In this document: piece after piece, positions 19,035-42,579 of the stretch | How positions within the stretch are numbered: position 1 is the first letter of the stretch | How the letters are laid out: each line of letters begins with the position of its first letter | Notes under the pieces: model-generated | What the model was told of the DNA's origin: nothing | The model's input: only the letters and a program-made list of their open reading frames with translations | Database searches by the model: none | DNA from: Spirochaetales bacterium | Lineage (GTDB): Bacteria; Spirochaetota; Spirochaetia; DSM-27196; SLST01 | DNA: 44,162 bases | Assembly (NCBI GenBank): GCA_007130265.1 | Contig: SLST01000114.1 | Coordinates: 1-44,162 of the forward strand | Direction: 5' to 3' | Translations under genes and position numbers: made by a program

Positions 19035-19063
19035 ACTATGGAGTACTTTCGGCCAGAGCGCAA
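19035..19063 (-). promoter_or_regulatory. Promoter of the LacI-family repressor gene
   Basis: Read on the minus strand: TTGCGC (19063-19058), 17-bp spacer, CATAGT (19040-19035). The -35 box lies inside the perfect palindrome GCGCAAGTACTTGCGC, which indicates autoregulation. Confidence 0.45.
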
Positions 19064-19092
19064 GTACTTGCGCAAGCGTGTGCAAATACTTG
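19041..19092. promoter_or_regulatory. Three-site LacI-type operator array
   Basis: The central site is a perfect 16-bp palindrome, GCGCAAGTACTTGCGC (19058-19073). Flanking it are GAGTACTTTC (19041-19050) and CAAATACTTG (19083-19092). The shared core (A/G)(A/G)TACTT recurs at 19042, 19063 and 19085, about 21-22 bp apart, which is two helical turns. The array touches the repressor's own -35 on one side and abuts the importer's -35 on the other. Confidence 0.6.
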
Positions 19093-19121
19093 TTGACAGA
19101 TGCCGGCTCGCGTAGTAGGAT
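19093..19121 (+). promoter_or_regulatory. Promoter of the LplB/YtcP-type importer operon
   Basis: TTGACA (19093-19098), an exact 17-bp spacer, then TAGGAT (19116-19121). The predicted transcription start (about 19128) is only a few bases ahead of the chosen ATG at 19132. The message would be nearly leaderless unless another start is used. Confidence 0.6.
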
Positions 19122-25868: not shown

Positions 25869-27461
25869 TCAATAATCGTCCAACACGCGAGGATCGATCG
25901 CCGGCATCGTCTCGAGCTTCCAGATATCGACGGGCACGTCGTTCTGTTGCGCCCGTCCCGGCGTGCTGCGGCCGTCGGCGACGAGCTTCTTCAGACGAGC
26001 GAGCATGGCTTTGACTCGGTCCGGTTCCTGCGCATGGAGGTTCGTAGTCTCCCCGGGGTCGGCGTGCAAATCATAGAGTTGCACGAGCGGCAGACCCTGT
26101 TCCGCCGCCTCGCGGTCAGGGTGGGTCCATCCTCCTGAACCGGGACACAGCACCAGTTTCCACTCCCCGTCACGGATCGCAAACTTGCCGTCGATCGAAT
26201 GATGCACGACATGGTCGCGAACCGGCTCGTCGGGATGCCGGAACAGAGACAGCATGCTGAAGCTGTCTTCGCCGGCGCTGTCGGGCAGAGCGTCGCCGAC
26301 GATATCGGCACAGGTAGCCATCAGATCCGAAAGACAGACCAGTTGGCCACAGATGCTGCCGGGTTCGATGGCTCCCGGCCACCGGGCGATACAGGGGATA
26401 CGGTGTCCGCCGTCCCAGGCATCGGACTTGTAGCCTCTGTACGGGCCGCTGGGGAAGTGGCCCTGCGGTTCCATTGCCGACTCGTAGTTGCCCCGGCCAT
26501 CTTCCTTCGCTCCAACGTAGTGCGCGCAGCCGTTATCGCTGGTGAAGACGACGAGGGTATTGTCGGCAACCCCGTGCCTCTCGAGGGAGTCGAGGACGCG
26601 TCCGAACACATCGTCGGTCTCAATGACCAGATCGGCGTAAAGATTGGCGAGTCCACTTCGGCCAATGAACTCCTTGTTGACCGATAGCGGCGTGTGCGGA
26701 GACGTCATAGGCAGATAGAGAAAGAACGGCTCTTCCGCGGCGGCCCGTTCGCCGATGTAGTCATCCGCCTTCTTCGCCCAGGTTGGCAGGAGCTGCTCGA
26801 AGTGCCAGTAGGGCATGGCGGGGCCACGCCAGCTCGCCAGATTCTGAGCCATCAGACGCTCCGGGATGAACTCCGACGGGATACCTACCGTCCGATCGTT
26901 TTCGATGAAACAGTATGGGGGCCAGTTGGGAACGTCCACGCCAAAGTAGTAGTCGAACCCGCGCTTGGTAGGCCCGCCGGTCGTCGGCTTCGAGAAGGCC
27001 TCGCGCCAGAGAGCCTTCTGCGCTGAAGTCGCTTCGAGATCCTCGGGGAGCCTGTCGGGTTGGGTGAAGGCCGGGACTTCCGGGCGGAAGTCCTCCGGTG
27101 TCGCCTCGAAGTCCCACCCCTGTCCCAGATGCCACTTGCCGATGCACGCCGTGTGGTACCCGTGCGTCTTGAGAAATCCGGGTACGGTCAACCGGGTTCC
27201 CGCGATCAACGGATCCCCATAGACGCCGACGATTCCTCTCTGCAGCGTGGACCGCCAGTTGTAGCGCCCGGTAAGCACGCTGTAACGCGACGGCGAGCAC
27301 ACCGCCGAACTGGAATGAGCATCGGTGAAGACCATGCCCTCTGTGGCGAACCGGTCGATATTCGGCGTCTTGATCATCCCGTCCGGGTTCAGGCACGAAG
27401 CATCACCGTAGCCCATGTCGTCGACGAAGAAGTACACGATGTTGGGTTTTGAGTGCATCAT
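25869..27461 (-). CDS. Type I sulfatase (formylglycine-dependent), cytoplasmic
   Basis: The protein has 530 residues and starts MMHSKPNIVYFFVDDMGYGD, with the metal-binding Asp pair at once. The sulfatase signature is SAVCSPSRYSVLTGRY. Cys at about residue 55 is the one converted to formylglycine, and the CxPxR rule is met. Further motifs are [33 protein letters not shown] and GGHRIPCIARWPG. The C-terminal sub-domain contains HHSIDGKFAIRDGEWKLVLC. No signal peptide precedes the catalytic core. It is closely related to the divergent neighbour at 27603: both have the unusual TGRYNWRS and end with STPGxxQxN. It removes sulfate esters from sugar residues; which carbon is unknown. The ribosome site AAAGGAACT is upstream. 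It needs a formylglycine-generating enzyme not found in this window. Confidence 0.93.
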   Translation of the reverse strand: MMHSKPNIVYFFVDDMGYGDASCLNPDGMIKTPNIDRFATEGMVFTDAHSSSAVCSPSRYSVLTGRYNWRSTLQRGIVGVYGDPLIAGTRLTVPGFLKTHGYHTACIGKWHLGQGWDFEATPEDFRPEVPAFTQPDRLPEDLEATSAQKALWREAFSKPTTGGPTKRGFDYYFGVDVPNWPPYCFIENDRTVGIPSEFIPERLMAQNLASWRGPAMPYWHFEQLLPTWAKKADDYIGERAAAEEPFFLYLPMTSPHTPLSVNKEFIGRSGLANLYADLVIETDDVFGRVLDSLERHGVADNTLVVFTSDNGCAHYVGAKEDGRGNYESAMEPQGHFPSGPYRGYKSDAWDGGHRIPCIARWPGAIEPGSICGQLVCLSDLMATCADIVGDALPDSAGEDSFSMLSLFRHPDEPVRDHVVHHSIDGKFAIRDGEWKLVLCPGSGGWTHPDREAAEQGLPLVQLYDLHADPGETTNLHAQEPDRVKAMLARLKKLVADGRSTPGRAQQNDVPVDIWKLETMPAIDPRVLDDY

Positions 27462-27602
27462 AGTTCCTTTCTCCGTGACGTGAGATCCTGGGTATTCTCC
27501 TGGGCGCGCAGGTTTTCGTCAAGTGGAGCTACACCACCGACGGCCCTCCAAGCCGTCGGCGCAGACATGTACAATCCCCAACCAACGTAGTAGGCTCGGG
27601 CC
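27462..27602. promoter_or_regulatory. Divergent promoter region between two related sulfatases
   Basis: 141 bp separate the start codons of 25869-27461 and 27603-29105. On the plus strand TACAAT (27570-27575) is a good -10 with a poor -35. On the minus strand CTTGACG (-35) is followed at 17 bp by GAGAAT. The shared region suggests co-regulation of the two enzymes. Confidence 0.35.
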
Positions 27603-29105
27603 ATGAAGAAGCGGCCGAACCTGATCTATGTCCTTGCGGATGATCTGGGCTATGGCGACGTCTCGTGTCTCAACGAGCGCGCCGCATGGCGGACTCCAGC
27701 GTTCGATCGTCTTGCCGCCGAAGGAATGAGTTTCACCGATGCGCATGCGTCCTCTGCAGTGTGTACACCCTCGAGGTACTCGATCCTGACTGGACGGTAC
27801 AATTGGCGATCGCGGCTCAAGCAGTCGGTCATGGGCGGATACTCGCCACCGTTGATCGAGGATGGACGATCGACGGTCGGCTCAATGCTACGCGAGGCAG
27901 GGTACCGGACCGCCTGCATCGGCAAGTGGCACTTGGGTATGGACTGGGCCCGCAGCAGAACGGTTCCAGAGGCGCCTCAGTTCGGTCACACGGAGGGCGT
28001 CGAATTCGACCGCCCTATCTCAAACGGGCCGGTAACGCGTGGCTTCGACTATTTCTACGGCATTGCCGCCTCTCTGGATATGCCGCCGTATGTGTACATA
28101 GAGAACGAAAGGGCAACCGAAGTCCCGGATCACGACTCCGAGAATACCGGCCAGCAGGTATGGCGTGAGGGTCCCACCGCGCCGGGATTTCGGCACGATG
28201 AAGTCCTTCCACGCCTGACGAAGAAGGCGCTTGAGATCATCGATGCGTGGGCCGACGAGCCTTTCTTTCTCTACTTCGCGCTGCCAGCGCCACACACCCC
28301 AATACTCCCGGTGGGTGACTTTGTCGGCAAGAGTGGGACCACGGCCTACGGCGACTTCGTGCTGATGTGTGACGACGTGGTCGCCCAACTGACCTCCGGG
28401 CTCGAGGAAAAAGGCATCGCGGAGGACACCATCTTTGTCTTTACGAGCGATAACGGTTGTTCACCAATGGCCGACTTCAAGGCGCTTGCCCGGTACGATC
28501 ACAACCCTAGCTATGTCTTTCGTGGCGCCAAGGCCGACATCTACGAAGGTGGGCACCGGATTCCACTCCTCGTTCGCTGGCCCGCTCAGATACGGGCCGG
28601 CAGCCGCTGCGACCAGACAGTGTGTCTCGCGGATCTCTACGCGACCATGGCGGAAGTTACCGGGACATTCGTCCCGGACGAGGCGGGCGAAGACAGCGTC
28701 AGCAATCTGCCACTCTGGATGGAGTCGGCGGGCGATGCTTCCTTGCGGGAGGCAACGGTACACCATTCCATCGACGGATCCTTCTCGCTTCGCAAGGGCA
28801 GGTGGAAGCTCGAGCTCTGTCCGGGATCCGGCGGGTGGAGCGAGCCGCGACCGGGCGAGGAGCCTCCGGGCTCGCCGGAGTTCCAGCTCTACGACCTGGA
28901 GTCAGACGTAGGAGAGCGGCGGAATCTCGTAGATGAGCACCCTGAGGTCGTCGATGAGCTCAGGGCCCTTCTTGCTGAGTACGTTGTGAACGGTCGAAGC
29001 ACGCCCGGCAAGCCGCAGAAGAACACCGCACCCGAGTGGTGGGAACAGCTGAAATGGATGGAGCGGGACTATTCCACGCCCTTGAGCGAGAGCTCATCCG
29101 AATAG
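27603..29105 (+). CDS. Type I sulfatase (formylglycine-dependent), cytoplasmic
   Basis: The protein has 500 residues, [20 protein letters not shown], and the signature [19 protein letters not shown] has Cys at about residue 54. Also visible are [33 protein letters not shown] and [13 protein letters not shown]. The C-terminal block [20 protein letters not shown] is shared almost motif by motif with the divergent sulfatase at 25869. There is no signal peptide; the core begins at residue 5. The ribosome site is weak (AGGCTCGGGCC). Its 3' end overlaps the convergent oppF-like gene by 37 bp. The substrate is presumably a sulfated oligosaccharide delivered by the adjacent Opp-type importer. Cysteine-type maturation is required. 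Confidence 0.93.
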
Positions 29106-30112
29106 TGACACGCAGCGTAGTGGTCCGGCGAGACCTCGCGCCATTGAGGTACTTCAGTCCGGCAACGGTCGGTCGCATGCCCGCACCGGGGATGGAACGG
29201 GCAGCCGGAGGGTACTGCAGCGGGGTTCGCTACCTCGCCGGGCAGTACGATTCGGTTCGTTCTCCAATCCGGATCGGGACGCGGAACGGCAGAGAGCAGG
29301 GCCTCGGTGTACGGATGCTTGGGGTTGACGAATAGCTCTTCAGTACGGGCCATCTCCACGGTTTTGCCCACGTACATGACCATCACCCGGTCGCTGATGT
29401 GTTCGACCACGCTCAGGTTGTGCGCGATGAACATATAGGTCAAGTGGAACTCCTGCTGCAGATCCTGCAGCAGATTCAGAATCTGCGCCTGGATGGAGAC
29501 GTCGAGAGCGCTCACCGCCTCGTCGCAGACGATCAGCTGTGGATTCGTGGACAACGCCCGAGCGATGCCGATCCGCTGCCGCTGGCCGCCGCTGAACGCG
29601 TGAGGGTAACGGTTGAGGTGCTTGACCTCGAGTCCGACCACCCCCATCAGATAGCGAACCCGATCCTTCAGCCCGTCTCCGGATGCAAGCCCGCTGACCC
29701 GCAGTGGCTCACCGACGATATCCAGGATCGTCATACGTGGATCGAGCGAACTGTAGGGATCCTGAAAGATCATCTGGGCATGCCGTCGAATGCGGCGAAG
29801 CTCTCGATTGTCGAGTGAGGTGACATCCACCTCTTCGCCTCCATTCAGCCTGAACGTTACTCTGCCGTCGGTGGGCTCGATCGCACGCAGAATACACCGA
29901 CCAAGTGTGGTCTTGCCGCAACCGCTCTCTCCCACAACCCCGAGAGTCTCGCCGCGGTTGATGAAGAGGCTGACGTCGTCGACAGCTTTCACATGACCGA
30001 GCACCTTCCTCATGAAGCCCTTCTCGATCGGGAAGAACTTCCTCAGGTGCTCTACCTGCAGAAGTCGCTGATCCTGACCGGTAGTCGGCGCTGCGTTCAC
30101 TTCGGCGCTCAT
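29069..30112 (-). CDS. oppF: Opp/Dpp-type ABC transporter ATP-binding protein (OppF-like)
   Basis: The protein has 347 residues. Walker [10 protein letters not shown] is at 61-69, the Q-loop is [12 protein letters not shown], the signature [15 protein letters not shown] is near 173-187, and Walker B is [12 protein letters not shown]. The C-terminal oligopeptide-type cysteine cluster ([14 protein letters not shown]) marks the OppF group. Its start overlaps the oppD stop in ATGA, and it is the last gene of a four-gene minus-strand operon. The 3' end runs 37 bp into the convergent sulfatase gene. In this setting, with two binding proteins and five sulfatases around it, an oligosaccharide rather than a peptide substrate is inferred. 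Family-5 Opp-like systems are known to import sugars in some bacteria. Confidence 0.92.
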
Positions 30113-31209
30113 AGCTGGCTTCCCTCGGCTAGCGGTTCTTCATGCGGCGCCCCTGCAGACCTCCGTCGACGTGTCTTGCGAAGCTGCTTCGAAGTCTCAG
30201 TCGGTCTCGACTCCTGTCCTTCACTGTGCAGGAAGCATCGAACCCTGTGCCCGTCACCCATGTCGACCAGAGCGGGCACTGCCACATCGCAATGTCCGGC
30301 CTTCCGGTCCGGGCACCGATTCCAGAAACCGCACCGCCATGGTGGGTTGATTGGTATCGGGACAGTTCCGCTTATGGCATCCAGACGAACGCGGGCCTTC
30401 CGTCCGAGCATCGGTATACTTTTCAGAAGCCCGCGCGTGTAGGGATGGAGCGGAGAGTGGAAGATCTGCCGGGTAGTCCCTTGTTCCACGACACGGCCCA
30501 GGTACATCACCGCGACCTCGTCGGCAATCTCGGCGATGACGCCAAGATCATGCGTGATGTAGAGTATGCTCATCCCGTACAGATCCTGCAATTCGCGCAT
30601 CAACTCGAGTATCTGTGCCTGGACTGTCACGTCGAGCGCGGTGGTCGGCTCGTCGGCGATCAGCAGTGTTGGACGGCACGACAATGCCATCGCGATCATC
30701 GCTCGCTGCCGCATCCCACCGGAGAACTGGTGCGGATACTCATCTATTCTCTGTCTGGGATTACTGATTCCCACTCGTTCGAGCATCTCAAGCGTTATCT
30801 CCCTGGCTTCCCGGTCGTTCGGCGTCCGGTGCAGCAGAATCGCCTCCATGATCTGGTTGCCGATTGTGTGGACCGGCGATAGGCTGGTCATGGGCTCCTG
30901 GAAGATCATCGATATATGCCTGCCTCGGATCGAGCGCATTCTTTCGCCACTCTGATCGAGTGCCGTGAGGTCGACCGGCTCCTCCTCATCGGTCTGCAAG
31001 AGGATCTGTCCTCCGACGATCTGCCCTGGATTGGGGACGATCCGGAGGATACTCTGCGCGGTGACGCTCTTACCGCAACCACTTTCGCCGATGATACCGA
31101 GCGTACGCTTTGAGGCGACGTCGAAGCTCACACCATCGACAGCCTTCAGAACTCCGTCATCGAGGTTGAAGTAGGTACGCAGGTTGTTCACTTCTATAAC
31201 GCTACTCAA
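30109..31209 (-). CDS. oppD: Opp/Dpp-type ABC transporter ATP-binding protein (OppD-like)
   Basis: The protein has 366 residues if started at TTG 31209 ([18 protein letters not shown]), which is preceded by GAGGGGAG. A GTG at 31239 is an alternative that overlaps the upstream stop in GTGA but lacks a good ribosome site. The ORF-track start at 31806 runs through the permease gene and is wrong. Walker A is GESGCGKSV (41-49), the signature is [15 protein letters not shown] (161 on), and Walker B is [12 protein letters not shown]. The C-terminal cluster has [15 protein letters not shown]. It is the partner ATPase of the OppF-like subunit, coupled to it by ATGA. It powers import through the OppB/OppC-like permeases. 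Confidence 0.9.
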
Positions 31210-31235
31210 AATCTCCCCTCGTTTCGCGTCCCGGC

Positions 31236-32369
31236 TCACTTGTACGGATCGGCAGCGTCGCGCAACCCGTCGCCCAGAAAGTTGATCGCAAGCACCGCAA
31301 CAATTACGAAGAGCGCCGGTAGGAGCAGCCACGGATGAAGCGCGACCGTCTGTACGCTCTGTGCGCTCTGGAGCAACACTCCCCAGCTGACCGCAGGCGC
31401 TCGTAATCCAACCCCAATGAAGCTCAGCGCCGTCTCCCCAAGAATCATCGTGGGAATGCGCAGCGTCATGTTCACAATGAGGTAGCTCATGAACGAAGGC
31501 AGGAGATGTTTGGCGATGATCCCGGCGTCCGTCATGCCCGCGATCCGTGCAGCCATCACGAAGTCCTCCTTCCTCACCTGGAGCAACTTGCCTCGCACGA
31601 CGCGAGCCTGTCCGGTCCACGCCATCGTCGCGAGCACGATGGTGATCCCGAAGTAGACCCGCACTATCGGCCAGTCCGGCGGCAGGGCTGCTGCAAGCGC
31701 GAGCCAGAACGGTATCTGCGGAATCGCCAGCAAGAACTCGATCAGCCGTTGGATAACCATATCCACGTAGCCGCCATAGTAGCCTGCGAGTCCCCCGAAT
31801 ATGCACCCCAGGACGAATGCGATCAACACGCCAATCAACCCGACTGACAACGAGAGCCGCGCGGCGTACAGATTCCGGGTGAACAGGTCACGGCCCATGC
31901 TGTCGGTTCCGAACAGGAAGATTACTCCCCCGGGTTCGACACCGAACAGGTGGATATCGGTCTCGACGAGACCCCAGAAACGATACGGTGTCCCCCGGGT
32001 GAAGTAACGGATTGGGTAGACTTCTGAGGTATCGTCCTCGTAGACGCGTCTGAACGTCGCGCGATCGAGGGTTCCGCGGTACCCATAGACGAACCCACCG
32101 GGGTAGAACCGTCCATCCTGGTCGAAGAACCGGACGCGCATCGGTGGGCTGTAGATGTAGTCCGAGAAGCGTTGTGTGGGAGTGTACGGAGCGAGAAACC
32201 CACAGAAGATCCCCACCAGGTACATGAAGGCAATCACTACCAGTCCAGCAATGGCAAGTTTGTGCTTGAAGAACTTTCTTCTAATCAGCACCCACTGGGA
32301 TGCCATGTAGTACGATTCTTCCTGCGTTGCCTCTTCTGCCGTTGTGAGCACTTTCGATTCGTCAGTCAT
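31236..32369 (-). CDS. oppC: Opp/Dpp-type ABC permease (OppC-like)
   Basis: The protein has 377 residues from ATG 32369 (MTDESKVLTTAEEATQEESY), behind AAGGA; the TTG at 32387 is an alternative. The N-terminal cytoplasmic tail leads to a first span (LAIAGLVVIAFMYLVGIFCG). An unusually long loop of about 100 residues (60-160) follows before the family motif FGTDSMGRDLF. The EAA-type loop is DFVMAARIAGMTDAGIIAKHLLP, and the C-terminus NFLGDGLRDAADPYK is typical of OppC/DppC. Long first loops are common in Opp-like systems that carry sugars or large ligands. The start overlaps the oppB stop by 8 bp. Confidence 0.92.
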   Translation of the reverse strand: MTDESKVLTTAEEATQEESYYMASQWVLIRRKFFKHKLAIAGLVVIAFMYLVGIFCGFLAPYTPTQRFSDYIYSPPMRVRFFDQDGRFYPGGFVYGYRGTLDRATFRRVYEDDTSEVYPIRYFTRGTPYRFWGLVETDIHLFGVEPGGVIFLFGTDSMGRDLFTRNLYAARLSLSVGLIGVLIAFVLGCIFGGLAGYYGGYVDMVIQRLIEFLLAIPQIPFWLALAAALPPDWPIVRVYFGITIVLATMAWTGQARVVRGKLLQVRKEDFVMAARIAGMTDAGIIAKHLLPSFMSYLIVNMTLRIPTMILGETALSFIGVGLRAPAVSWGVLLQSAQSVQTVALHPWLLLPALFVIVAVLAINFLGDGLRDAADPYK

Positions 32370-33345
32370 ATCGAATCCTTGGATCAAGCGCTGCGAGCAA
32401 TATGTCGGAGATGAACATGCCGAGGATCGTCAGTGCGCTGAGCAGCATGAGAATGGATGCGGAAAGATACATGTCCTGACTCAGGAGCCCCTGGAGCAGC
32501 AACGGTCCAACGGTCGGTAGATCAAGTACGAGCGCGACGATCGTCTCGCCCGACACGATCGCCGGCAGGACCCAACCGATCGTACTGACGATCGGGTTCA
32601 GGGCAATTCGTACTGGGTACTTGAACAGGATAGTCCGCTCGTCCACACCCTTGGTTCGGGCGGTTATGACGTACTGTTTGGACAGCTCGTCGAGAAGCGT
32701 TGCACGCATCACCCGGATTATGCTCGCCGTGCCGGCGGTGCCAATGACGATGACCGGAATCGGGAGGTGTTTGATGAGGTCCCAGACCTTCCCCCAACTC
32801 CACGCTGCCCGCAGGTACTCAGGCGAGAAAAGTCCGCCCACGCTCATACCGAGGTAGCGATAGGAGACAAACATCAGGATCAATGCCAGCAGGAAGTTAG
32901 GTACGGCAAGGCCGACGAATCCGACCACGGTCGCAGCGTAGTCACCAATGGAGTACTGTCGCGTGGCAGAATATATCCCGATGGGAATCGCGACGGCGTA
33001 CGTGAACAGGAGGGTGATCAAACTGATCGTGACCGTCAGGGCAAGACGTTCACCAATAAGCGCAGCTACCGGACGGTTGTACTGAAAAGAAATCCCGAAG
33101 TTCCCTCGAAGCGCGGAGCTGATCCAGCGGAAATACTGAACGTAGACGGGCCGATCCAGCCCGTACGCCGCCCGCATGGCCGCAATCTCCTCGCGGCTCA
33201 CTTCCGCGTCCATCTCCTGTCTCGAAGCTATATAGGTTGATAAAAAGTCACCGGGCGGAAGCTGAATGACCATAAACGACACGATCGACACAAGAAGCAG
33301 GAGAACAAAGGTGTAGAGCACTCTTCGGACAAGATAGCGGGTCAC
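32362..33345 (-). CDS. oppB: Opp/Dpp-type ABC permease (OppB-like)
   Basis: The protein has 327 residues from GTG 33345, behind AGGAGGCGAG. It starts with the signature MTRYLVRRVLYTFVLLLLVS, followed by QLPPGDFLSTYIASRQEMD, YGLDRPVYVQYFRW and GNFGISFQYNRPV, all typical of OppB/DppB. The EAA loop appears as YVITARTKGVDERTILFKYPVRIALNP. The C-terminus ILLAALDPRIRYD is standard. It is the first gene of the oppBCDF-type operon and is divergent from the first family-5 binding-protein gene, with which it shares a back-to-back promoter. Confidence 0.93.
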   Translation of the reverse strand: MTRYLVRRVLYTFVLLLLVSIVSFMVIQLPPGDFLSTYIASRQEMDAEVSREEIAAMRAAYGLDRPVYVQYFRWISSALRGNFGISFQYNRPVAALIGERLALTVTISLITLLFTYAVAIPIGIYSATRQYSIGDYAATVVGFVGLAVPNFLLALILMFVSYRYLGMSVGGLFSPEYLRAAWSWGKVWDLIKHLPIPVIVIGTAGTASIIRVMRATLLDELSKQYVITARTKGVDERTILFKYPVRIALNPIVSTIGWVLPAIVSGETIVALVLDLPTVGPLLLQGLLSQDMYLSASILMLLSALTILGMFISDILLAALDPRIRYD

Positions 33346-33421
33346 GGACGCTCGCCTCCTGGAGCACTGCTCGCCATTCGGTCACAGGCAGTTATCACTA
33401 TTTGCGGAAACGGACCTGGGG

Positions 33422-33450
33422 ATTTAAGCATGACTCAGGCCGGTTGTCAA
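33422..33450 (-). promoter_or_regulatory. Promoter of the oppBCDF-type operon
   Basis: On the minus strand TTGACA (33450-33445), a 17-bp spacer, then TTAAAT (33427-33422). The -35 is one arm of the palindrome GTCAAGCTTGAC (33446-33457), whose other arm provides the -35 of the divergent promoter. Confidence 0.6.
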
Positions 33451-33452
33451 GC

Positions 33453-33481
33453 TTGACGGTATGCCGATACTGGCCTACAGT
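33453..33481 (+). promoter_or_regulatory. Promoter of the first family-5 SBP gene
   Basis: TTGACG (33453-33458), a 17-bp spacer, TACAGT (33476-33481). The same promoter, with the shared ATACTG..CTAC core, occurs at the same distance upstream of the second SBP gene (38961-38989). Transcription from here gives a leader of about 233 nt. Confidence 0.65.
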
Positions 33482-33501
33482 AACGATTGGACGGTGCTGT
33501 C

Positions 33502-33708
33502 ATGCCGACTGTCAGGCAAATCGCTAGACATATGAGCTTCGCTGATCGCAATTCTGCTGGCTTGTTACCTTCTTCTGTCAGAGTGATGCTCATGGAATCC
33601 AGCACGGCCTCATCCTATTTGTATATATCAAAAGGAGATGCAGACGGGAGCATTGGCTGCCGTGACGACGAGGGGGCATCGAGTTTCCTCGTCGAGATGT
33701 TCCAGTAG
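33502..33708 (+). CDS. Possible 68-codon leader ORF upstream of SBP1
   Basis: From ATG 33502 the frame runs 68 codons (MPTVRQIARHMSF...) to TAG at 33706-33708, ending 12 bp before the SBP ATG. The equivalent ATG and stop exist upstream of the second SBP, again 68 codons. The C-terminal parts match strongly: GDADGSIGCRDDE and LVEMFQ here against GNADGSIDCRDGE and LVEMFE there. The DADGSI...D pattern resembles an EF-hand or dockerin-type loop with one ligand missing. The middle is not conserved at protein level because one-base indels shift it between the copies. It may be a small protein, a leader peptide or a non-coding conserved leader. Confidence 0.3.
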   Translation: MPTVRQIARHMSFADRNSAGLLPSSVRVMLMESSTASSYLYISKGDADGSIGCRDDEGASSFLVEMFQ

Positions 33709-33720
33709 AGGAGGGACACG

Positions 33721-35709
33721 ATGAAAAGGTTTCTGTTGATGCCGACTCTGATGGTGCTGCTCGCGCTGTCCGCTTTCGGCGGGGCGCAGCCGGAAGAAGT
33801 GCAACCGGCCACAGCACCCGGAGTTGATGCGGAAGTGTGGGAGACCCCGGCGGTGTACGCAACCCCTGGGGATTTCCAGCGAGAGACCGGCGCTCAGTTG
33901 CCGCCGTACAATGAAGCGCCTGTCTTCCGGGAGCGAGTCGAGACGGGAGAACTGCCGCCAGTCGAAGACCGGCTGCCGGTAGAACCGCTCGTCGTGCGGC
34001 CGTGGAACCAGATAGGCACGTACAGCGAACGGGAGATCAGCGGGGACTCGGGAGATATTGCTTGCGCGAATGCACAGCATCTTCTGGAGATCATCGCGCC
34101 GGACTTCGCCACGCCGGTCCCGAACGTGTTGAAAGGGTACGTCCTCTCAAGCGATGCACGCAGCATAACGCTGCACCTTCGGGAAGGTCTGCGTTGGTCC
34201 GACGGCCATCCGCATACCGCCGACGACTTTGTGTTCTGGTATGAGGACGTTCTGAACAACTCGCAGCTCACACCCGCAAGACCGGCGATCTACACCTCGG
34301 GCGGTGAGTTCATGGATCTGACGAAGATTGACGACTACACCGTGCGGCTCGACTTCGCAGAGCCGTATCCGGCCATTACTGACGTCCTCGCAAGCGACCA
34401 ATGGTGGCAATACCCCATTCCGCCAAAGCACTACATGCAGCAGTGGCATATCGATTACAACCCGGATGCAGACGAGCTTGCGCGCGAGGAAGGGTTTGAG
34501 ACGTGGTACCAAGCATTCCTGATGCACAATACTACCGGGGCAGGCCAGCAGGACGTCGATCGTCCCGTTGTCTACCCGTGGAAACTCGTATCGATCGACA
34601 GCGCACAGAACCAGTATTGGGAGAGAAACCCGTACTTCTGGAAGGTCGATATCGCCGGCAACCAGCTGCCCTACATCGGACGCCTGAACGGTGTGCAGGT
34701 CGGGGATGCCCAGACCAAGCAGCTGCGCGTTATCTCCGGAGCCTTCCAGATTGGAGGCATCCTTCAGCCGCTGGCCTCTTATCCTCTCTATCTGGACAAC
34801 GCTGAGCGGGGAGATTACCGCGTGATGCTATGGGACGATCCTCGCGGCGCTTTTCGCGGTGCAGTTACGCTGAACCAGACGTCCAAGGATCCGGTGAAGC
34901 GTGAACTGTTCAGTGAGCTGAGGTTTAGACAGGCGCTGTCACTTGCGATCGACCGAGACGACGTGAATGAGACCTTGTTCTTCGGTCTGGGGGAACCGCG
35001 GCAGCCAGCCCCACCACCACCGGCCAGCCAATTCTACGAAGAGTGGATGAGGGATCACTACGCTGAGTACGATCCCGCCCGGTCGAACGCGCTGCTTGAT
35101 GAGATGGGGCTTCAGTGGGATGGCAGGCGGCAGTACCGTCTCCGACCTGACGGAGAACCACTCTCCATAAATCTCCAGTTCGTTGGGCAGTTTGATGGTA
35201 TTGCTCAGCTACTGCAGGAGTATTGGCAAGCGGTCGGGGTTAGAGTGGCTCTGCGAGAGGTCACCGGTGCAATGTGGACCCAGCTCGTGGACGCCAACGA
35301 TACGGATCTCGGAATTTGGTCAGTCGAGAATACTGACTTTGGAATGAGGCGAACTGGAGCGTCACCGGCGCGGCCACCGTGGACAGGAGCAAACGTACCT
35401 TGGGACCTCTGGTATGTCACGGGAGGAGCATCCGGTGAGGAGCCTCCCGAGGCTGTTCGAGAGCTGTACGCTTTGATCGATGAGTGGACACTGACGATTC
35501 CCGGCACTGAAAGGTACGTTGAGCTCGGAAAGGAAATCTGGAGAATCAACATAGAGAATCTTTTCATGATTGGCGCGGTCGGCCTTGTCCCGTACCCGGT
35601 CATCATCTCCAACAGTCTGGGTAACACAATGCCGGACGAGAGTCTCTGGAGCCCGAGTTTCCAACAGTGGGTTCCGTACATGGCTGAACAGTGGTTCTTC
35701 GTCGATTGA
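33721..35709 (+). CDS. Family-5 extracellular solute-binding protein (OppA-like), copy 1
   Basis: The protein has 662 residues from ATG 33721, behind GAGGAGGG. The N-terminus MKRFLLMPTLMVLLALSAFG is a signal peptide; the expected lipobox cysteine position reads SAFGG, not SACGG. The SBP_bac_5 core is clear: LRWSDGHPHTADDFVFWYED, FAEPYPAITDVLAS, RNPYFWKVDIAGNQLPYI, RFRQALSLAIDRDDVNETLF and YDPARSNALLDEMGLQWDG. At 662 residues it is longer than typical peptide-binding proteins, like carbohydrate-binding members of the family. It is divergent from oppB, implying it feeds that channel, and is nearly identical in layout to the copy at 39229. Two binding proteins with one permease set suggests recognition of two related ligands. 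Confidence 0.92.
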   Translation: MKRFLLMPTLMVLLALSAFGGAQPEEVQPATAPGVDAEVWETPAVYATPGDFQRETGAQLPPYNEAPVFRERVETGELPPVEDRLPVEPLVVRPWNQIGTYSEREISGDSGDIACANAQHLLEIIAPDFATPVPNVLKGYVLSSDARSITLHLREGLRWSDGHPHTADDFVFWYEDVLNNSQLTPARPAIYTSGGEFMDLTKIDDYTVRLDFAEPYPAITDVLASDQWWQYPIPPKHYMQQWHIDYNPDADELAREEGFETWYQAFLMHNTTGAGQQDVDRPVVYPWKLVSIDSAQNQYWERNPYFWKVDIAGNQLPYIGRLNGVQVGDAQTKQLRVISGAFQIGGILQPLASYPLYLDNAERGDYRVMLWDDPRGAFRGAVTLNQTSKDPVKRELFSELRFRQALSLAIDRDDVNETLFFGLGEPRQPAPPPPASQFYEEWMRDHYAEYDPARSNALLDEMGLQWDGRRQYRLRPDGEPLSINLQFVGQFDGIAQLLQEYWQAVGVRVALREVTGAMWTQLVDANDTDLGIWSVENTDFGMRRTGASPARPPWTGANVPWDLWYVTGGASGEEPPEAVRELYALIDEWTLTIPGTERYVELGKEIWRINIENLFMIGAVGLVPYPVIISNSLGNTMPDESLWSPSFQQWVPYMAEQWFFVD

Positions 35710-35723
35710 TTGGTTCATATTCT

Positions 35724-35749
35724 ACCGCTACCGGCCGGCCGGTAGCGGT
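35724..35749 (+). other. Perfect 26-bp palindrome behind SBP1
   Basis: ACCGCTACCGGCC-GGCCGGTAGCGGT is a perfect inverted repeat 15 bp after the SBP1 stop. No T-run follows, so it is unlikely to be an efficient intrinsic terminator. As RNA it would form a very stable stem that could block 3' exonucleases and raise SBP1 levels relative to the sulfatase genes downstream. Confidence 0.65.
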
Positions 35750-35920
35750 GTGTGCAGTCCCGTGCGGTGCTGGTCTCAATGAGAGGCCAATGGACGACGA
35801 TCAACGAAATGTGTCTGAGGGAGCGTTGATACCGCATAGTAGAACCTCCGGAACGCATCTCTTTGTGATTGGGGCAAAGACGATCGGCCAAGCGCGATCA
35901 TTCCGTATGAGGAGGTTTCT

Positions 35921-37363
35921 GTGATCAGCCGCCTACCGAATATTGTTCTGATCATGTGCGATGATCTCGGTTACGGGGACACTGGGTTCAACGGTAACGA
36001 GGTAATACGAACCCCCAATCTGGATGAACTTCGTTCCGAAGGAGCACGCTTCACCAGGTTCTTCGCCGGAGGTCCTGTCTGCTCTCCTACACGTGGCACC
36101 TGCCTGACGGGACGCCATTATTCACGCTATGGCATCACGCACGCGAACAAGGGGCGTCTTCCGACGCAGGAGATATCGCTGGGCGTGGCCTGTAAGCAGT
36201 GCGGCTATCGGACCGGCCATTTCGGCAAATGGCATCTTGGCACCCTCACCACGGATATCCCCGACAGCAGGAGAGGCGGTCCAGATCATCTGCATGAGTA
36301 TTCACCACCATGGTTGCATGGGTTTGACACCTGCTTCTCCACAGAAGCCAGAGTGCCAACCTGGGACCCGATGGTGACACCAGATGAGATTGGTCCGAAA
36401 GGGCAAAAGCACGGAGTGCCCGGCTCACCTTTCGGCGCTTTCTACTGGAATCAGGAAGGAACTATCGCAAAAGACAACCTTCGAGGCGACGACTCAAGGG
36501 TGATCATGGACAGGGTGGAGCCCTTCGTGCGCGAATGCGCTTCCGCCGACGAACCCTTCCTCGCGGTCGTCTGGTTTCACACGCCGCACACGCCGGTTGT
36601 TGCCGGCCCCGAATACCGGGCTATGTACTCGCGCTTCAGCGATGACGAGCAGCACTATTACGGGTGCGTTACTGCGATGGACGAGCAAGTAGGCAGACTT
36701 AACCGCTTGCTCAAGGAGCTTGGGCTCGAGGATAGAACGATGCTCTGGTTCTGTTCGGATAACGGTCCTGAAGGTTCGGAGAACGTCTCTCAGAACGGAC
36801 GTAACAGGGGCAGTACCGGAGGCCTCAGAGGACGCAAGCGTAGCCTCTTTAACGGCGGTATTGGCGTGCCGGCATTGCTGAAATGGCCTGGGCCCGTTTC
36901 TCCAGGAACCCAATACGATATGCCCTGCAGCACCCTGGACTATTTCCCGACGATCACTGAACTCATTGGCTTCACCGTGCCCGACAACAGACCCATTGAC
37001 GGCATCAGCCTCCTACCACTCATAGACAGCCAGTTGTCGATACGCCCGAAGCCGATTCCTTACCGCTTCATGGAAAGGAGGGACTCGATGTTCGGATCGC
37101 CGACACACGCCCTCATAGACAGTCAGCACAAATATCTAACGAACTTTTCGGCTGATGGGTCCGAGGACATGCTCTTCAACATTGACTCGGATGTCAATGA
37201 ATGTACAAGTATCCTGAGTGGCTGTCCGGACCGTGTACGTGAGATGCGCGAACACCTGCAGAGCTTCATCGAGTCCTGCCGAAGAAGCCACTACGGGCAC
37301 GACTATCCAGAGCCGAGCGAACCCATAGAAGACTTTCAGGAGATCACCGGGACGTGGCGATGA
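35921..37363 (+). CDS. Type I sulfatase (formylglycine-dependent), cytoplasmic
   Basis: The protein has 480 residues from GTG 35921 (MISRLPNIVLIMCDDLGYGD), behind GAGGAGG. The signature GPVCSPTRGTCLTGRHYSRY has Cys at about residue 54. Other motifs are GHFGKWHLGTLT, FHTPHTPVVAG, WFCSDNGPEGS and RGRKRSLFNGGIGVPALLKW. The catalytic core starts at residue 5 with no signal peptide. It is a different subfamily from the 25869/27603 pair. It lies 211 bp downstream of SBP1, after the palindrome, and 149 bp before the next sulfatase, so the three genes may be transcribed together. It cleaves a sulfate ester on a sugar of unknown identity. Confidence 0.93.
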   Translation: MISRLPNIVLIMCDDLGYGDTGFNGNEVIRTPNLDELRSEGARFTRFFAGGPVCSPTRGTCLTGRHYSRYGITHANKGRLPTQEISLGVACKQCGYRTGHFGKWHLGTLTTDIPDSRRGGPDHLHEYSPPWLHGFDTCFSTEARVPTWDPMVTPDEIGPKGQKHGVPGSPFGAFYWNQEGTIAKDNLRGDDSRVIMDRVEPFVRECASADEPFLAVVWFHTPHTPVVAGPEYRAMYSRFSDDEQHYYGCVTAMDEQVGRLNRLLKELGLEDRTMLWFCSDNGPEGSENVSQNGRNRGSTGGLRGRKRSLFNGGIGVPALLKWPGPVSPGTQYDMPCSTLDYFPTITELIGFTVPDNRPIDGISLLPLIDSQLSIRPKPIPYRFMERRDSMFGSPTHALIDSQHKYLTNFSADGSEDMLFNIDSDVNECTSILSGCPDRVREMREHLQSFIESCRRSHYGHDYPEPSEPIEDFQEITGTWR

Positions 37364-37512
37364 GGAATCGTCATTACTGAGCGGTGTCGCGCCACGAGGC
37401 CGTGTGCCGCTCGCGAAGCTTGGGAGGTCTCACCGTACCAGAGATGAGTCGGTCTGAGAGTCCATCTGCGTTGACTGGCGGACCGAACTCATTTATAGCA
37501 TGGGAGGAATAC

Positions 37513-38838
37513 GTGCCATCACCTAAGCCCAACTTTCTCTTCTTCTTTCCTGACCAGCAACGTCCTGATTGGCTGGGATTCGGGCCCGGGCTGGACGTAC
37601 AGACGCCTACGCTCTCCAGGATCGCCCAGCGTGGCGTTCGTTTTGCCGAGGCACTGACGCCAAGCCCGCTGTGTGCACCGGCTCGCGCTTGTCTTGCCTC
37701 CGGACGTGGATACCGTGACTGTGGCGTTTCCGACAACCGCAGCGACTATCCACTTGAACTTCCGACATACTACCAGGTGCTACGGGACGTCGGATACCGC
37801 GTCGCTGGGGTTGGTAAGTTCGATCTGCACAAAGACACTTCTGATTTCGCACAACTTGATTGGTACATGGACGGATCTCGGCTACTCTCCGAGTGGGGTT
37901 TCACCGAGGGCGTAGATAACGAGGGGAAGATCGATGGTAGCATGAGCTACCGACAGGCGGGTCGGGCCAAGGGCCCGTACATGAAAACCCTCGCTGACCG
38001 TGGCCTGGCCGAGGCCTATCTGGCAGAACACGACCGACTGGGTGATGGCCCTGGTGCCTACACAACGATCGTCCCGGACGACCTCTACTGCGACAACTGG
38101 CTCGCAGAAAACGGGAAGCAGATCCTTCAGGGTTTCCCGGAAGATCAGCCGTGGCATCTAATCGTCAACTTCACAGGACCTCATAGCCCAATGGACGTGA
38201 CCGAGTCAATGCGTCGAAGTGTTGAGCATCGCACCTATCCTCATGCTATAGCAAACGACCGCCACGATGCAGACGCCATTCTGAGGGTTCGACAGAACTA
38301 CACGGCCATGGTGGAGAACATCGATCGGCTCATGGCCGAGATGATTGAGATTGTTCAGGGACGTGGCGAACTTGAGCGAACCATGGTCATCTACTCCAGC
38401 GACCACGGCGAGATGCTGGGGGACTTCGGTCTATTCGGCAAGGGCATCTGGCGGTACGCTGCCGCTCACATTCCGCTTGTCATTCAGGCACCCGGCGCCC
38501 AAGGCGGTGCGGTATCGGACGCGCTGGTCGACCTGACTGATGTTACTGCAACCATACTCGACTATGCGGGATGCGAGCCGCTGCCGGAGATGACTGGCAG
38601 GAGTTTGCGGCGGGTGCTTGAGTTCCCCGGCCAGCCTCACCGCGACGTCGCCGTATCAGCTTTGGGCGACTGGCGTCTCGCCTACGACGGAAGAAACAAG
38701 CTTGTCCTCGAGAAAGGAAGAGCTCCGCGGCTGTTCGACCGCCAGCATGATCCGTTTGAACAGATCGACTGCGCGACCGAACGTCCCGAGACAGTCGCCT
38801 ATCTTGGCCGATATCTCTGCGAGGTGTCGAAGACCTGA
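37513..38838 (+). CDS. Type I sulfatase, choline-sulfatase/DQ-type subgroup, cytoplasmic
   Basis: The protein has 441 residues from GTG 37513 (VPSPKPNFLFFFPDQQRPDW), behind GGGAGGAAT. The ORF-track start at 37384 has no site and adds a non-homologous tail. The N-terminal metal motif is D-Q rather than D-D, as in choline-sulfatase and phosphonate-monoester-hydrolase-like members. The signature is SPLCAPARACLASGRGYRD, with Cys at about residue 54. Later come GKFDLHKDTSDF, FTGPHSPMDVT and IYSSDHGEMLGDFGLFGKG. No signal peptide is seen. Its subgroup differs from the other four sulfatases, which suggests a different sulfate position on the same glycan. The 3' end is followed by the promoter of the second SBP copy. 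Confidence 0.92.
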   Translation: MPSPKPNFLFFFPDQQRPDWLGFGPGLDVQTPTLSRIAQRGVRFAEALTPSPLCAPARACLASGRGYRDCGVSDNRSDYPLELPTYYQVLRDVGYRVAGVGKFDLHKDTSDFAQLDWYMDGSRLLSEWGFTEGVDNEGKIDGSMSYRQAGRAKGPYMKTLADRGLAEAYLAEHDRLGDGPGAYTTIVPDDLYCDNWLAENGKQILQGFPEDQPWHLIVNFTGPHSPMDVTESMRRSVEHRTYPHAIANDRHDADAILRVRQNYTAMVENIDRLMAEMIEIVQGRGELERTMVIYSSDHGEMLGDFGLFGKGIWRYAAAHIPLVIQAPGAQGGAVSDALVDLTDVTATILDYAGCEPLPEMTGRSLRRVLEFPGQPHRDVAVSALGDWRLAYDGRNKLVLEKGRAPRLFDRQHDPFEQIDCATERPETVAYLGRYLCEVSKT

Positions 38839-38960
38839 CACCCTCGCAGCGAAAGCCTCGATTGCCGTCTCCGGCCTCCGACTCCCGAAACCGGAGCGGG
38901 TGCCGTGCCGGTTCGATCAGCCGCGCCCTGCGCGTCGAACACCGTCAGCGGACGTCGCGA

Positions 38961-38989
38961 TTGACGGCACCTCTATACTGCTCTACTAT
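38961..38989 (+). promoter_or_regulatory. Promoter of the second family-5 SBP gene
   Basis: TTGACG (38961-38966), a 17-bp spacer, TACTAT (38984-38989). It is homologous to the promoter at 33453. The distance from the last -10 base to the SBP ATG is 240 bp in both copies. Confidence 0.6.
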
Positions 38990-39009
38990 GGCGAGCAGAT
39001 GGTGCTGCC

Positions 39010-39216
39010 ATGCCGATTGTCGAGCGAGCCGATAGAAACTGCTGCACAGCTGATTTCACACTTCAACCCGCTATCGACTTCTCCTGCCAGAGCGGTACAG
39101 ATCGAGGCCAGCACGACTCTATCCCATCTGCCATATCCACGGGAAATGCAGACGGCAGCATTGATTGCCGTGACGGCGAGGAGACCTCCAGTCAACTCGT
39201 CGAGATGTTCGAGTAG
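39010..39216 (+). CDS. Possible 68-codon leader ORF upstream of SBP2
   Basis: The frame starts at ATG 39010 (MPIVERADRNCCTADF) and ends at TAG 39214-39216, 12 bp before the SBP2 ATG. Length, start position and C-terminus (GNADGSIDCRDGEE, LVEMFE) match the leader ORF of copy 1. The central third differs in frame between the copies, so this reading is uncertain. No strong ribosome site is visible before the ATG. Confidence 0.3.
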   Translation: MPIVERADRNCCTADFTLQPAIDFSCQSGTDRGQHDSIPSAISTGNADGSIDCRDGEETSSQLVEMFE

Positions 39217-39228
39217 AGGAGGGACACG

Positions 39229-41217
39229 ATGAAAAGGTTTCTGTTGATACCGGCTCTGATGGCACTGCTCGCGCTGTCCGCTTTTGGCGGGGCGCAGCCG
39301 GAAGAAGTCCAACCGGCCACAGCACCCGGAGTTGATGCGGAAGTGTGGGAGACCCCGGCGGTGTACGCAACCCCTGGGGATTTCCAGCGAGAGACCGGCG
39401 CTCAGTTGCCGTCGTACAATGAAGCGCCTGTCTTCCAGGAGCGAGTCGAGGCAGGAGAACTGCCGCCAGTCGAAGACCGGCTCCCAGTCGAGCCCCTTGT
39501 CGTGCGGCCGTGGAACCAGATAGGCACGTACAGCGAACGGGAGATCGCGGCCGACTGGAGGGATCTTGCTTCCGCGAACGCACAACACCTTCTGGAGATC
39601 ATCGCGCCGGACTTCACCATGCCGGTTCCGAACGTGCTGAAAGGCTATGATCTCTCAGATGACGCACGCAGCATAACACTGCACCTTCGAGAAGGTCTGC
39701 GTTGGTCCGACGGCCATCCGCATACGGCAGACGACTTCGTGTTCTGGTATGAAGACGTTCTGAACAATTCGGAGCTCACGCCTGCACGGCCCGCGGTCTA
39801 TTTTTCTGCCGGTGTGTTCATGGATCTGACGAGGATCGACGACTACACCGTTCGGCTCGACTTTGCCGAACCGTACCCGGTCATCCTCGACGTTCTCGCG
39901 AGTGAACTTTGGTGGCAATATCCTATTCCGCCAAAGCACTACATGCAGCAGTGGCATATCGACTACAATCCGGATGCAGGCGCGCTTGCGCGCGAGGAAG
40001 GTTTTGAGACCTGGTACCAGGCATTCTTGATGCACAATGCCACCGGCGCAGACCAGCAGGACGTCGACCGCCCAACGGTCTACCCATGGGTACTGACGTC
40101 TATCGACAGCGCCCAGAACCAGTACTTCGAGAGGAACCCGTATTTCTGGAAGGTTGATATCGCCGGCAATCAGCTGCCCTATATCGGCCGCATGACTGGC
40201 GTGCGGGTCGGTGATGCTCAGGTCAAGCAGCTGAGAGTCATCTCGGGCGACTTTCATCTAGGGGGGGTGTGGCAATCGGTCGCTAACTATCCGCTCTATC
40301 TCGATAACGAGGAGCGCGGAAACTATCGAGCGATGCTGTGGGAAGATCCACGCGGATCAATGGATACTGCGATCAGCCTCAACCAAACCTCGCCGGATCC
40401 GGTCAAGAGGGAAATGTTCCGAGATCTTCGGTTCCGACAGGCGCTCTCGCTTGCCATCGACCGAGAGGAGATGAACGAGACGCTCTTCTTCGGCCTGGGC
40501 GAACCGCGACAGGCCGCACCACCGCCCGCAGCGAGCGATCTCTTCGAAGAGTGGATGCGCGACTACTATGCCGACTATGATCCTGCAAGAGCAAATGAGT
40601 TGCTCGACGAGATGGGACTCCAGTGGGACGCCCGACGTGAGTTTCGTCTCCGTCCGGACGGACAGCCGGTCACGATAAACATGCAGTTCGTCGAGCGGTA
40701 CGATCCCATATCGCAGCTGCTGCAGGAGTACTGGCAGGCGGTAGGCGTGAGGGTCACACTCAGGCAGGTGACCGGCGCGATGTGGACCGAGCTTGTACAG
40801 GCCAACGAGACCGACATGGGGCGCTGGGCGCTTGAGAACACCGACTTCACGATGCGGCGCACCCGTGCTGCAGTCGCACGGCCGCCGTGGACCGGCGCCA
40901 ACTATCCATGGGGTACATGGTACACGACGGATGGTGCGTCAGGTGAAGAGCCACCGGAGACCGTCAAAGAGTTGTACCGCGTGATTGACGAGTGGTCGAC
41001 GACGGTGGCTGGGACGGATCGCCACATCGAGCTGGGCAAAGAGATCTGGCGAATCAACATTGAGAATCTTTTCGTGATCGGAGCGGTCGGTCTCGTTCCG
41101 TACCCGGTTATCATCACCAATAGTCTGGGTAACACAATGCCGGACGAGAGCCTCTGGAGCCCAAGCTACCAGCAGTGGGTGCCGTACATGGCCGAACAGT
41201 GGTTTTTTGTTGATTGA
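39229..41217 (+). CDS. Family-5 extracellular solute-binding protein (OppA-like), copy 2
   Basis: The protein has 662 residues, the same length as copy 1, from ATG 39229 behind GAGGAGGG. The signal peptide MKRFLLIPALMALLALSAFG again has SAFGG at the lipobox position. Core motifs match copy 1: LRWSDGHPHTADDFVFWYED, RNPYFWKVDIAGNQLPYI and RFRQALSLAIDREEMNETLF. Differences from copy 1 concentrate in stretches such as GVFMDLTRIDD, GDFHLGGVWQSVANYP and ENTDFTMRRTRAAVARPP, which may line the ligand site. No permease is adjacent, so it probably shares the oppBCDF-type channel. It is followed by a strong terminator at 41243 and then a fifth sulfatase. Confidence 0.92.
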   Translation: MKRFLLIPALMALLALSAFGGAQPEEVQPATAPGVDAEVWETPAVYATPGDFQRETGAQLPSYNEAPVFQERVEAGELPPVEDRLPVEPLVVRPWNQIGTYSEREIAADWRDLASANAQHLLEIIAPDFTMPVPNVLKGYDLSDDARSITLHLREGLRWSDGHPHTADDFVFWYEDVLNNSELTPARPAVYFSAGVFMDLTRIDDYTVRLDFAEPYPVILDVLASELWWQYPIPPKHYMQQWHIDYNPDAGALAREEGFETWYQAFLMHNATGADQQDVDRPTVYPWVLTSIDSAQNQYFERNPYFWKVDIAGNQLPYIGRMTGVRVGDAQVKQLRVISGDFHLGGVWQSVANYPLYLDNEERGNYRAMLWEDPRGSMDTAISLNQTSPDPVKREMFRDLRFRQALSLAIDREEMNETLFFGLGEPRQAAPPPAASDLFEEWMRDYYADYDPARANELLDEMGLQWDARREFRLRPDGQPVTINMQFVERYDPISQLLQEYWQAVGVRVTLRQVTGAMWTELVQANETDMGRWALENTDFTMRRTRAAVARPPWTGANYPWGTWYTTDGASGEEPPETVKELYRVIDEWSTTVAGTDRHIELGKEIWRINIENLFVIGAVGLVPYPVIITNSLGNTMPDESLWSPSYQQWVPYMAEQWFFVD

Positions 41218-41242
41218 CGCCATGACCCAGTCTTGACGTCAG

Positions 41243-41273
41243 GCGGGAGCGCATACAGCGTTCCCGCTTTTTT
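41243..41273 (+). terminator. Rho-independent terminator after SBP2
   Basis: GCGGGAGCGC-ATACA-GCGTTCCCGC forms a 10-bp stem with one G-U pair, followed directly by TTTTTTG. It lies 26 bp after the SBP2 stop and 44 bp before the sulfatase start. Expression of the last sulfatase would need read-through or a further promoter. Confidence 0.85.
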
Positions 41274-41316
41274 GTTTCCTTGCCGCGACAGTGCGTACGT
41301 GAAGGAGAACGCTGAG

Positions 41317-42579
41317 ATGCGACCACCGAACATCGTGATTATCCTTGCCGACGACATGGGATACGGGGACCTTGGCTGTTACGGCAATACGATGATCAAG
41401 ACCCCTAACATTGACGGCCTCGCGTCGGCCGGAATGCGATTCACTGATTTCCACTCAAACGGCGCCGTGTGCAGCCCAACGCGAGCGGCGCTCCTGACAG
41501 GCAGATACCAGCAACGCTGCGGGATCGAAGGTGTGGTAACGGCCGCCAACCATCGGGATGTCGGGATGGCGCTCTCCGAGTATACCTTCGCGAAAGGTCT
41601 TAAAGAGGCAGGATATCAGACGGCACTCTTTGGAAAGTGGCACTTAGGATACGACCGGCAGTTCAACCCGGTCCGTCACGGGTTCGATGAGTTTCGTGGA
41701 TTTGTCTCCGGGAATGTCGACTACCAGTCGCATATCGACCAGGCCGGCGTGGAGGATTGGTGGTTCGATGCCTCGCTCGCACCGGAAGACGGGTACACAA
41801 CGGACTTGGTGACGCGCTACGGTGTACGCTTCATAGAAGGACACCGAGAAGACCCTTTCTGTCTCTATCTTGCCCACGAGTGTCCGCACTATCCTTACCA
41901 GGGACCCGATGATCCGGCCTTTCGCACGCCTGGTCATCCGGAGCCAGTCCAGGGGCCACGGGAAGATAGAGCTGCCGCGTACAAGGAGATGATCGAGGCG
42001 CTCGACCAAGGTGTCGGCGAGGTGATGAGAGCTCTCGACCGCTCGGGACTTCGCGAGAACACTTTGGTCTTCTTTTTCTCCGACAGCGGACCCGCGGGTC
42101 CGGGATCTGCGGGAGGACTGCGCGGGCGAAAGGGAAGCGTCTGGGAGGGAGGCCATCGAGTTCCGGCGATTGCCTGCTGGCCGGGCCGAGTAGGGCCGGC
42201 GACCGAGACCGATCACCCGGCGATGGGGATGGACCTCTTCCCCACAATGCTCGAGCTTGCCGGCCTGGCTCCACCGGAGACACCAAGACTGGACGGCGTG
42301 AGTCTTGCGCCTCTTCTCACGGGTGCGGGCAGCATGACTGAGAGAGATCTGTTCTGGCGATGTGGCAACGGGAAGGCCGTGCGCCGAGGCGACTGGAAAC
42401 TCGTTGTATCGCCGGAAGACGGCCCGTCGAGCGCGAACACGGAGCTCTTCAATCTCGCGGTAGATCCGGCAGAGGCGAACGACATTGCCGGTAGCGAACC
42501 GACGATCACGGAGGAGCTATCGCGCGCTCTGGAGGCGTGGGAGGCCGACGTATCTGCCGGTGTTCGGCGGTTGACGTAG
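41317..42579 (+). CDS. Type I sulfatase (formylglycine-dependent), cytoplasmic
   Basis: The protein has 420 residues from ATG 41317 (MRPPNIVIILADDMGYGDLG), behind GAAGGAGA. The ORF-track start at 41233 lies upstream of the terminator and is rejected. The signature GAVCSPTRAALLTGRYQQRC has Cys at about residue 52. Also present are LFGKWHLGYDRQF and GRKGSVWEGGHRVPAIACW. The second metal site normally reads SDNG, but here it is FFFSDSGPAG, with Ser in place of the Asn ligand. The short length and arylsulfatase A-like layout are otherwise normal. There is no signal peptide. The unusual ligand residue could alter metal affinity or activity. The gene follows SBP2 after a terminator. Confidence 0.92.
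   Translation: MRPPNIVIILADDMGYGDLGCYGNTMIKTPNIDGLASAGMRFTDFHSNGAVCSPTRAALLTGRYQQRCGIEGVVTAANHRDVGMALSEYTFAKGLKEAGYQTALFGKWHLGYDRQFNPVRHGFDEFRGFVSGNVDYQSHIDQAGVEDWWFDASLAPEDGYTTDLVTRYGVRFIEGHREDPFCLYLAHECPHYPYQGPDDPAFRTPGHPEPVQGPREDRAAAYKEMIEALDQGVGEVMRALDRSGLRENTLVFFFSDSGPAGPGSAGGLRGRKGSVWEGGHRVPAIACWPGRVGPATETDHPAMGMDLFPTMLELAGLAPPETPRLDGVSLAPLLTGAGSMTERDLFWRCGNGKAVRRGDWKLVVSPEDGPSSANTELFNLAVDPAEANDIAGSEPTITEELSRALEAWEADVSAGVRRLT

Follow-up and report, generated by a model that had tools for sequence, protein, structure and literature searches.

The oppB/SBP1 intergenic region of a Spirochaetales bacterium: a predicted SBP1 promoter and a probably incidental palindrome

The oppB/SBP1 locus, its palindrome and its duplicated leader

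The window analysed here is positions 1 to 44,162 of contig SLST01000114.1, which comes from a fragmented Spirochaetales assembly (4.47 Mb in 616 contigs). Within it, the transporter gene oppB and SBP1, a gene for a solute-binding protein, are divergent and separated by an intergenic gap of 375 bp, and a paralogue of the latter, SBP2, is found further along the plus strand (Table 1). Genes were called by a script with a simple codon model. In an orthologue search carried out for footprinting, the closest relatives of SBP1 outside the window had at most 45% identity.

The identity between SBP1 and SBP2 is uneven: it is 93-96% in the first 300 nt, drops locally to 65-70% within nt 1050-1800 and is back at 87% at the end, a pattern that would reflect either recombination between the copies or patchy selection. 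In the region 25869-42579 of the window, the oligopeptide-type transporter and the two binding proteins are surrounded by five sulfatase genes (PF00884), suggesting that a sulfated substrate is taken up. We also note that a 5.7-Mb genome of the same class (G054) has, above strict cut-offs, 36 genes closely related to oppB and 19 homologues of SBP, which is an unusual expansion of this transporter family.

Table 1. Coordinates of the genes and sequence features discussed, numbered along the window
Feature	Position	Strand	Remarks
oppB-type permease gene	32362..33345	minus	PF00528 and PF19300; first gene of the divergent transporter operon (oppBCDF)
TTAAAT, proposed oppB -10 box	33422..33427	minus	Unsupported; T at position 2
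TTGACA, proposed oppB -35 box	33445..33450	minus	Hexamer present; unsupported as promoter
Perfect palindrome GTCAAGCTTGAC	33446..33457	none	Only perfect copy in the genome
TTGACG, SBP1 -35 box (predicted)	33453..33458	plus	Member of the enriched class; identical in SBP2
TACAGT, SBP1 -10 box (predicted)	33476..33481	plus	Score 14.9; T1, A2, C3 and T6 kept in SBP2
SBP1 leader, ~233 nt	33488..33720	plus	Homologue of the SBP2 leader (70% identity across 268 nt from 33453)
SBP1, solute-binding protein family 5	33721..35709	plus	PF00496
SBP2 promoter TTGACG-17-TACTAT (predicted)	38961..38989	plus	Score 15.2; duplicate of the SBP1 promoter by alignment
SBP2, SBP1 paralogue with 82% identity	39229..41217	plus	Pfam and alignment

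The first-pass annotation had described a perfect palindrome between the two genes, the arms of which would supply the -35 boxes of divergent promoters. Its reading of the letters is accurate: the 12-bp palindrome GTCAAGCTTGAC is perfect and lies where it had been placed, and the hexamers named as promoter elements, with 17-bp spacers, are present on both strands. The window contains 22 perfect 12-bp palindromes compared to 17.4 ± 4.1 expected from dinucleotide shuffles, and 9% of shuffled copies of the 375-nt gap carry at least one (P 0.09). As this count is within chance, we take the palindrome at oppB/SBP1 as unremarkable. Two outward-facing TTGAC words with two bases between them already fix 10 of the 12 palindrome bases, and the centre between such words is self-complementary by chance in one case in four. 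The palindrome itself is probably incidental. Taken alone, pairs of TTGAC words back to back with 0-8 bp between them (GTCAA-N0-8-TTGAC) are seen in only 0.27% of shuffled gaps.

The similarity between the SBP1 and SBP2 leaders begins exactly at TTGACG (33453) and extends to the start codon. The two -35 boxes are identical, and the -10 box of SBP2 keeps four of six bases (T, A, C and the last T). The SBP2 equivalent of the palindrome, GTCGCGATTGAC, has nine of the 12 bases in common with it and is not palindromic, the left arm being only partial. The alignment and this equivalent sequence confirm the earlier remark that SBP2 retains the plus-strand promoter and not the palindrome. The leader had no Rfam match, and the folding z-scores of -0.40 and 0.69 are not beyond chance; a known or notably structured leader RNA was rejected on both grounds.

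A promoter class calibrated on the same genome

Promoter patterns were calibrated on approximately 0.87 Mb of sampled contigs from the same genome, where coding sequence was the reference for 250 upstream regions, and on counts of patterns across the whole genome. The pattern TTGACN-17-TAnnnT (that is, TTGAC-N18-TAnnnT) has a density of 3.62 per 10 kb in upstream regions and 0.07 per 10 kb in coding sequence, an upstream enrichment of approximately 50-fold with a sharp spacing optimum. Across the whole genome, it has 214 matches versus 22 for the reversed control pattern. This is clearly the main promoter class of the organism. A strict class site is missing from most upstream regions, so weak promoters must be common.

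The class constrains its -10 box closely. Among 19 class sites, position 2 is A in 17, C in one, G in none and T in one, and position 6 is T in 17, C in one and G in one. The oppB candidate is the one site with T at position 2; once the window is left out, the class sites of the upstream regions (250 in all) contain none. Sites were also scored with a matrix trained iteratively on upstream regions, the window's own regions being excluded. This matrix may favour its starting pattern, and the strict class counts are independent of it.

The site upstream of SBP1 scores 14.9 and its SBP2 counterpart 15.2, both higher than the 90th percentile for genuine upstream regions (14.1). Of 600 coding stretches, each 375 nt long, none reaches 14.9, and base-shuffled copies of the gap attain the score of the SBP1 site in 1% of cases. 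Because it belongs to the main class and is kept in the SBP2 copy, the predicted SBP1 promoter is very probably genuine, and the first-pass proposal of TTGACG-17-TACAGT is upheld by the genome's own class together with the duplicate. We infer that this promoter is active and that transcription starts near 33488.

The promoter proposed for oppB on the minus strand, TTGACA-17-TTAAAT, did not hold up: its -10 box misfits the class and its score is at background. Every register of the minus-strand TTGACA site scores 3.3 or less, compared to a median best score of 6.6 for a coding stretch. TTAAAT has T in place of the near-invariant A at position 2, the trained matrix rejects its A at position 3, and the shifted register TAAATC has a C at position 6. 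Class -10 boxes at 16-18 bp are found on the plus side only of the oppB/SBP1 gap. A search of the minus side of the gap returned no significant promoter for oppB, the best site starting at 33519 (P 0.18), and a sigma-54 promoter was rejected since its best site is mismatched at 4 of 11 specified bases. We infer that the minus-strand site is inactive, and oppB may require an activator or use a weak promoter. Calibration against the genome's own strict promoter class thus splits the original claim into a believable half and the other half.

A shared -35 element between secA and a divergent gene

GTCAA-N0-8-TTGAC has 18 sites in this genome. One of them lies where secA and a gene for a putative lipoprotein diverge (L117, G000:C357, 7626-7705): in this gap, a single GTCAATCTTGAC forms both -35 boxes, and class -10 boxes are present on both sides (TTGACA-18-TAGTAT and TTGACC-18-TACATT). 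The putative lipoprotein gene had no Pfam match. Across the order, GTCAA-NN-TTGAC is found in 24 of 30 secA upstream regions (L248-L277), and in 21 of these 24, from five families, each side has its own TAnnnT box at a distance of 16-18 bp. When the secA gaps are aligned, TGTCAATCTTGACC is the sole part with conservation of at least 90%. In two genomes (G012 and G023) the secA and lipoprotein promoters have moved apart, each with its own TTGAC, which fits two -35 boxes and not an operator.

In a further genome (G006; L199 1501-1512 and L251, both on G006:C4), the lipoprotein gene and secA lie approximately 500 bp further apart, with a TTGAC for each side and similar sequence preceding both copies, as if an insertion had duplicated the promoter. 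After separation of the promoters, secA keeps AATCTTGACC (L251, L257, L260, L274 and L276), of which a -35 box needs only TTGACC. The central TC of the shared element is likewise invariant at secA, an extra constraint for which we have no explanation.

At secA, one 14-bp element able to be both -35 boxes persists across families, making this divergent promoter a compact natural test of polymerase exclusion. Both secA and oppB/SBP1 carry GTCAA-NN-TTGAC between divergent genes. However, the secA gap has a class-type -10 box on either side and shares its element across five families, whereas at oppB/SBP1 only one -10 box fits.

Interpretation and comparison with known promoters

We favour, with a probability of about 0.62, the explanation that the gap holds an ordinary SBP1 promoter and a chance palindrome. 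The right arm of the palindrome would provide the -35 box of a sigma-70 type (housekeeping-sigma) promoter from which SBP1 is transcribed with its ~233-nt leader, and promoter and leader would have been duplicated along with the SBP gene. The left arm would be an incidental TTGACA that, with the two central bases, completes the palindrome by chance. Transcription of oppBCDF would come from a different or weaker promoter inside the same 375-bp gap. A divergent SBP/oppB pair from the same genus (L100, G005) carries two distinct promoters of the class type, TTGACA-16-TACACT and TTGACA-17-GATAAT, whose -35 boxes lie 72 bp from each other, so a shared palindrome is not needed. Against the favoured explanation, oppB needs some promoter and none better was found on its side, back-to-back TTGAC words are rare in shuffled gaps, and weak promoters must, as noted, be common. 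A further point against it is the genome-wide excess of TTGAC-N18-TTnnnT (37 matches versus 10 for the reversed control), from which it follows that a minority of such sites may work.

Alternatively, both arms could be -35 boxes of genuine divergent promoters, with bound polymerases excluding each other and the genes competing. The minus strand does offer a perfect TTGACA with a 17-bp spacer, and at secA a shared -35 architecture does exist and is conserved, both in this genome and in the order. Nevertheless, we consider this reading unlikely, given that TTAAAT misfits the class and that the comparable divergent SBP/oppB locus in G005 has no shared -35. Equally doubtful is a related reading in which the two arms act as a pair of -35 boxes, like the secA element, with a weak promoter on the oppB side; polymerase exclusion would then couple production of the binding protein to that of the channel, with no regulator. 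Overlapping polymerase sites and competition at oppB/SBP1 may exist.

The first-pass annotation had also suggested that one regulator bound at the palindrome could control channel and binding protein together. In favour of an operator for a dimeric regulator acting in both directions, the palindrome is perfectly symmetrical and sits centrally between divergent genes that are linked in function, and probable LacI-type operators of similar form (GTCAACGTTGAC) exist elsewhere in the genome. We nonetheless regard such an operator as very improbable. The palindrome is lost in SBP2, its centre is GC whereas that of LacI-type sites is CG, and the opp cluster has no adjoining regulator gene. A regulon defined by the 12-mer was rejected because the sequence is single in the genome and the perfect copies inspected in four relatives (G006, G009, G012 and G019) are inside genes. 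With the 12-mer unrepeated at promoters in the genome and relatives checked, nothing points to the suggested regulator.

LacI-type elements were observed at other loci. Both GTCAACGATGAC and GTCAACGTTGAC are found where a gene for a LacI-type regulator and sugar-permease genes diverge (L139, G000:C417, ~1275-1315), and the 12-mer GTCAACGTTGAC recurs in an intergenic position adjoining a gene that resembles GH42 beta-galactosidase (L133, G000:C7, 3412-3423); gene names at these two loci were assigned by reading translations. These sites are probable operators of a LacI-type regulator and look like a different motif from the oppB/SBP1 palindrome. In the window itself, the gap between a LacI-type gene and a divergent permease gene (19057-19121) contains GCGCAAGTACTTGCGC, followed at some distance by a similar TGCAAATACTTG, as well as TTGACAGATGCCGGCTCGCGTAGTAGGAT. 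The last of these would be a class promoter, and the region as a whole a probable operator plus promoter.

Least credible is the notion that the leader, palindrome included, is a remnant of coding sequence (frame V-K-L-D-G) in which the promoter-like words are codons: the frame is open for approximately 29 codons in both copies, with similar peptides and codon scores (0.08 and 0.17) inside the coding range, but 31% and 19% of open intergenic stretches score as high, and we rejected the remnant because it has no Pfam match over the cut-off and because changes between the copies are even over codon positions (13, 8 and 8; different from the SBP coding pattern, P 0.0003), so that the leader is not a hidden gene under selection.

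With an ordinary promoter and a chance palindrome as the preferred explanation, the picture of the oppB/SBP1 locus is little changed, consisting of a promoter of the common class plus an incidental palindrome. The predicted SBP1 and SBP2 promoters resemble the sigma-70 type promoter (TTGACA-17-TATAAT) in having TTGACG, a 17-bp spacer and TAnnnT, with no essential difference; the long leader of SBP1 is a mild peculiarity.

A limited literature search found no published report of a conserved palindromic shared -35. The Pr/Pc promoters of plasmid pLS20 are overlapping divergent promoters of which polymerase binds only one (PMC4207663), and divergent promoters with overlapping polymerase sites are what they would have in common with oppB/SBP1. 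For Pr/Pc, however, a regulator is known, the starts are mapped and DNA looping occurs, whereas the arrangement at oppB/SBP1 is a sequence-based prediction. In bacterial bidirectional promoters, the -10 element is shared and the starts are mostly 18 bp apart (PMC10268837, PMC12825309). The likeness is that symmetry allows two mutually exclusive orientations of the polymerase; at oppB/SBP1, in contrast, this symmetry would be at the -35 and the starts would be approximately 73 bp apart.
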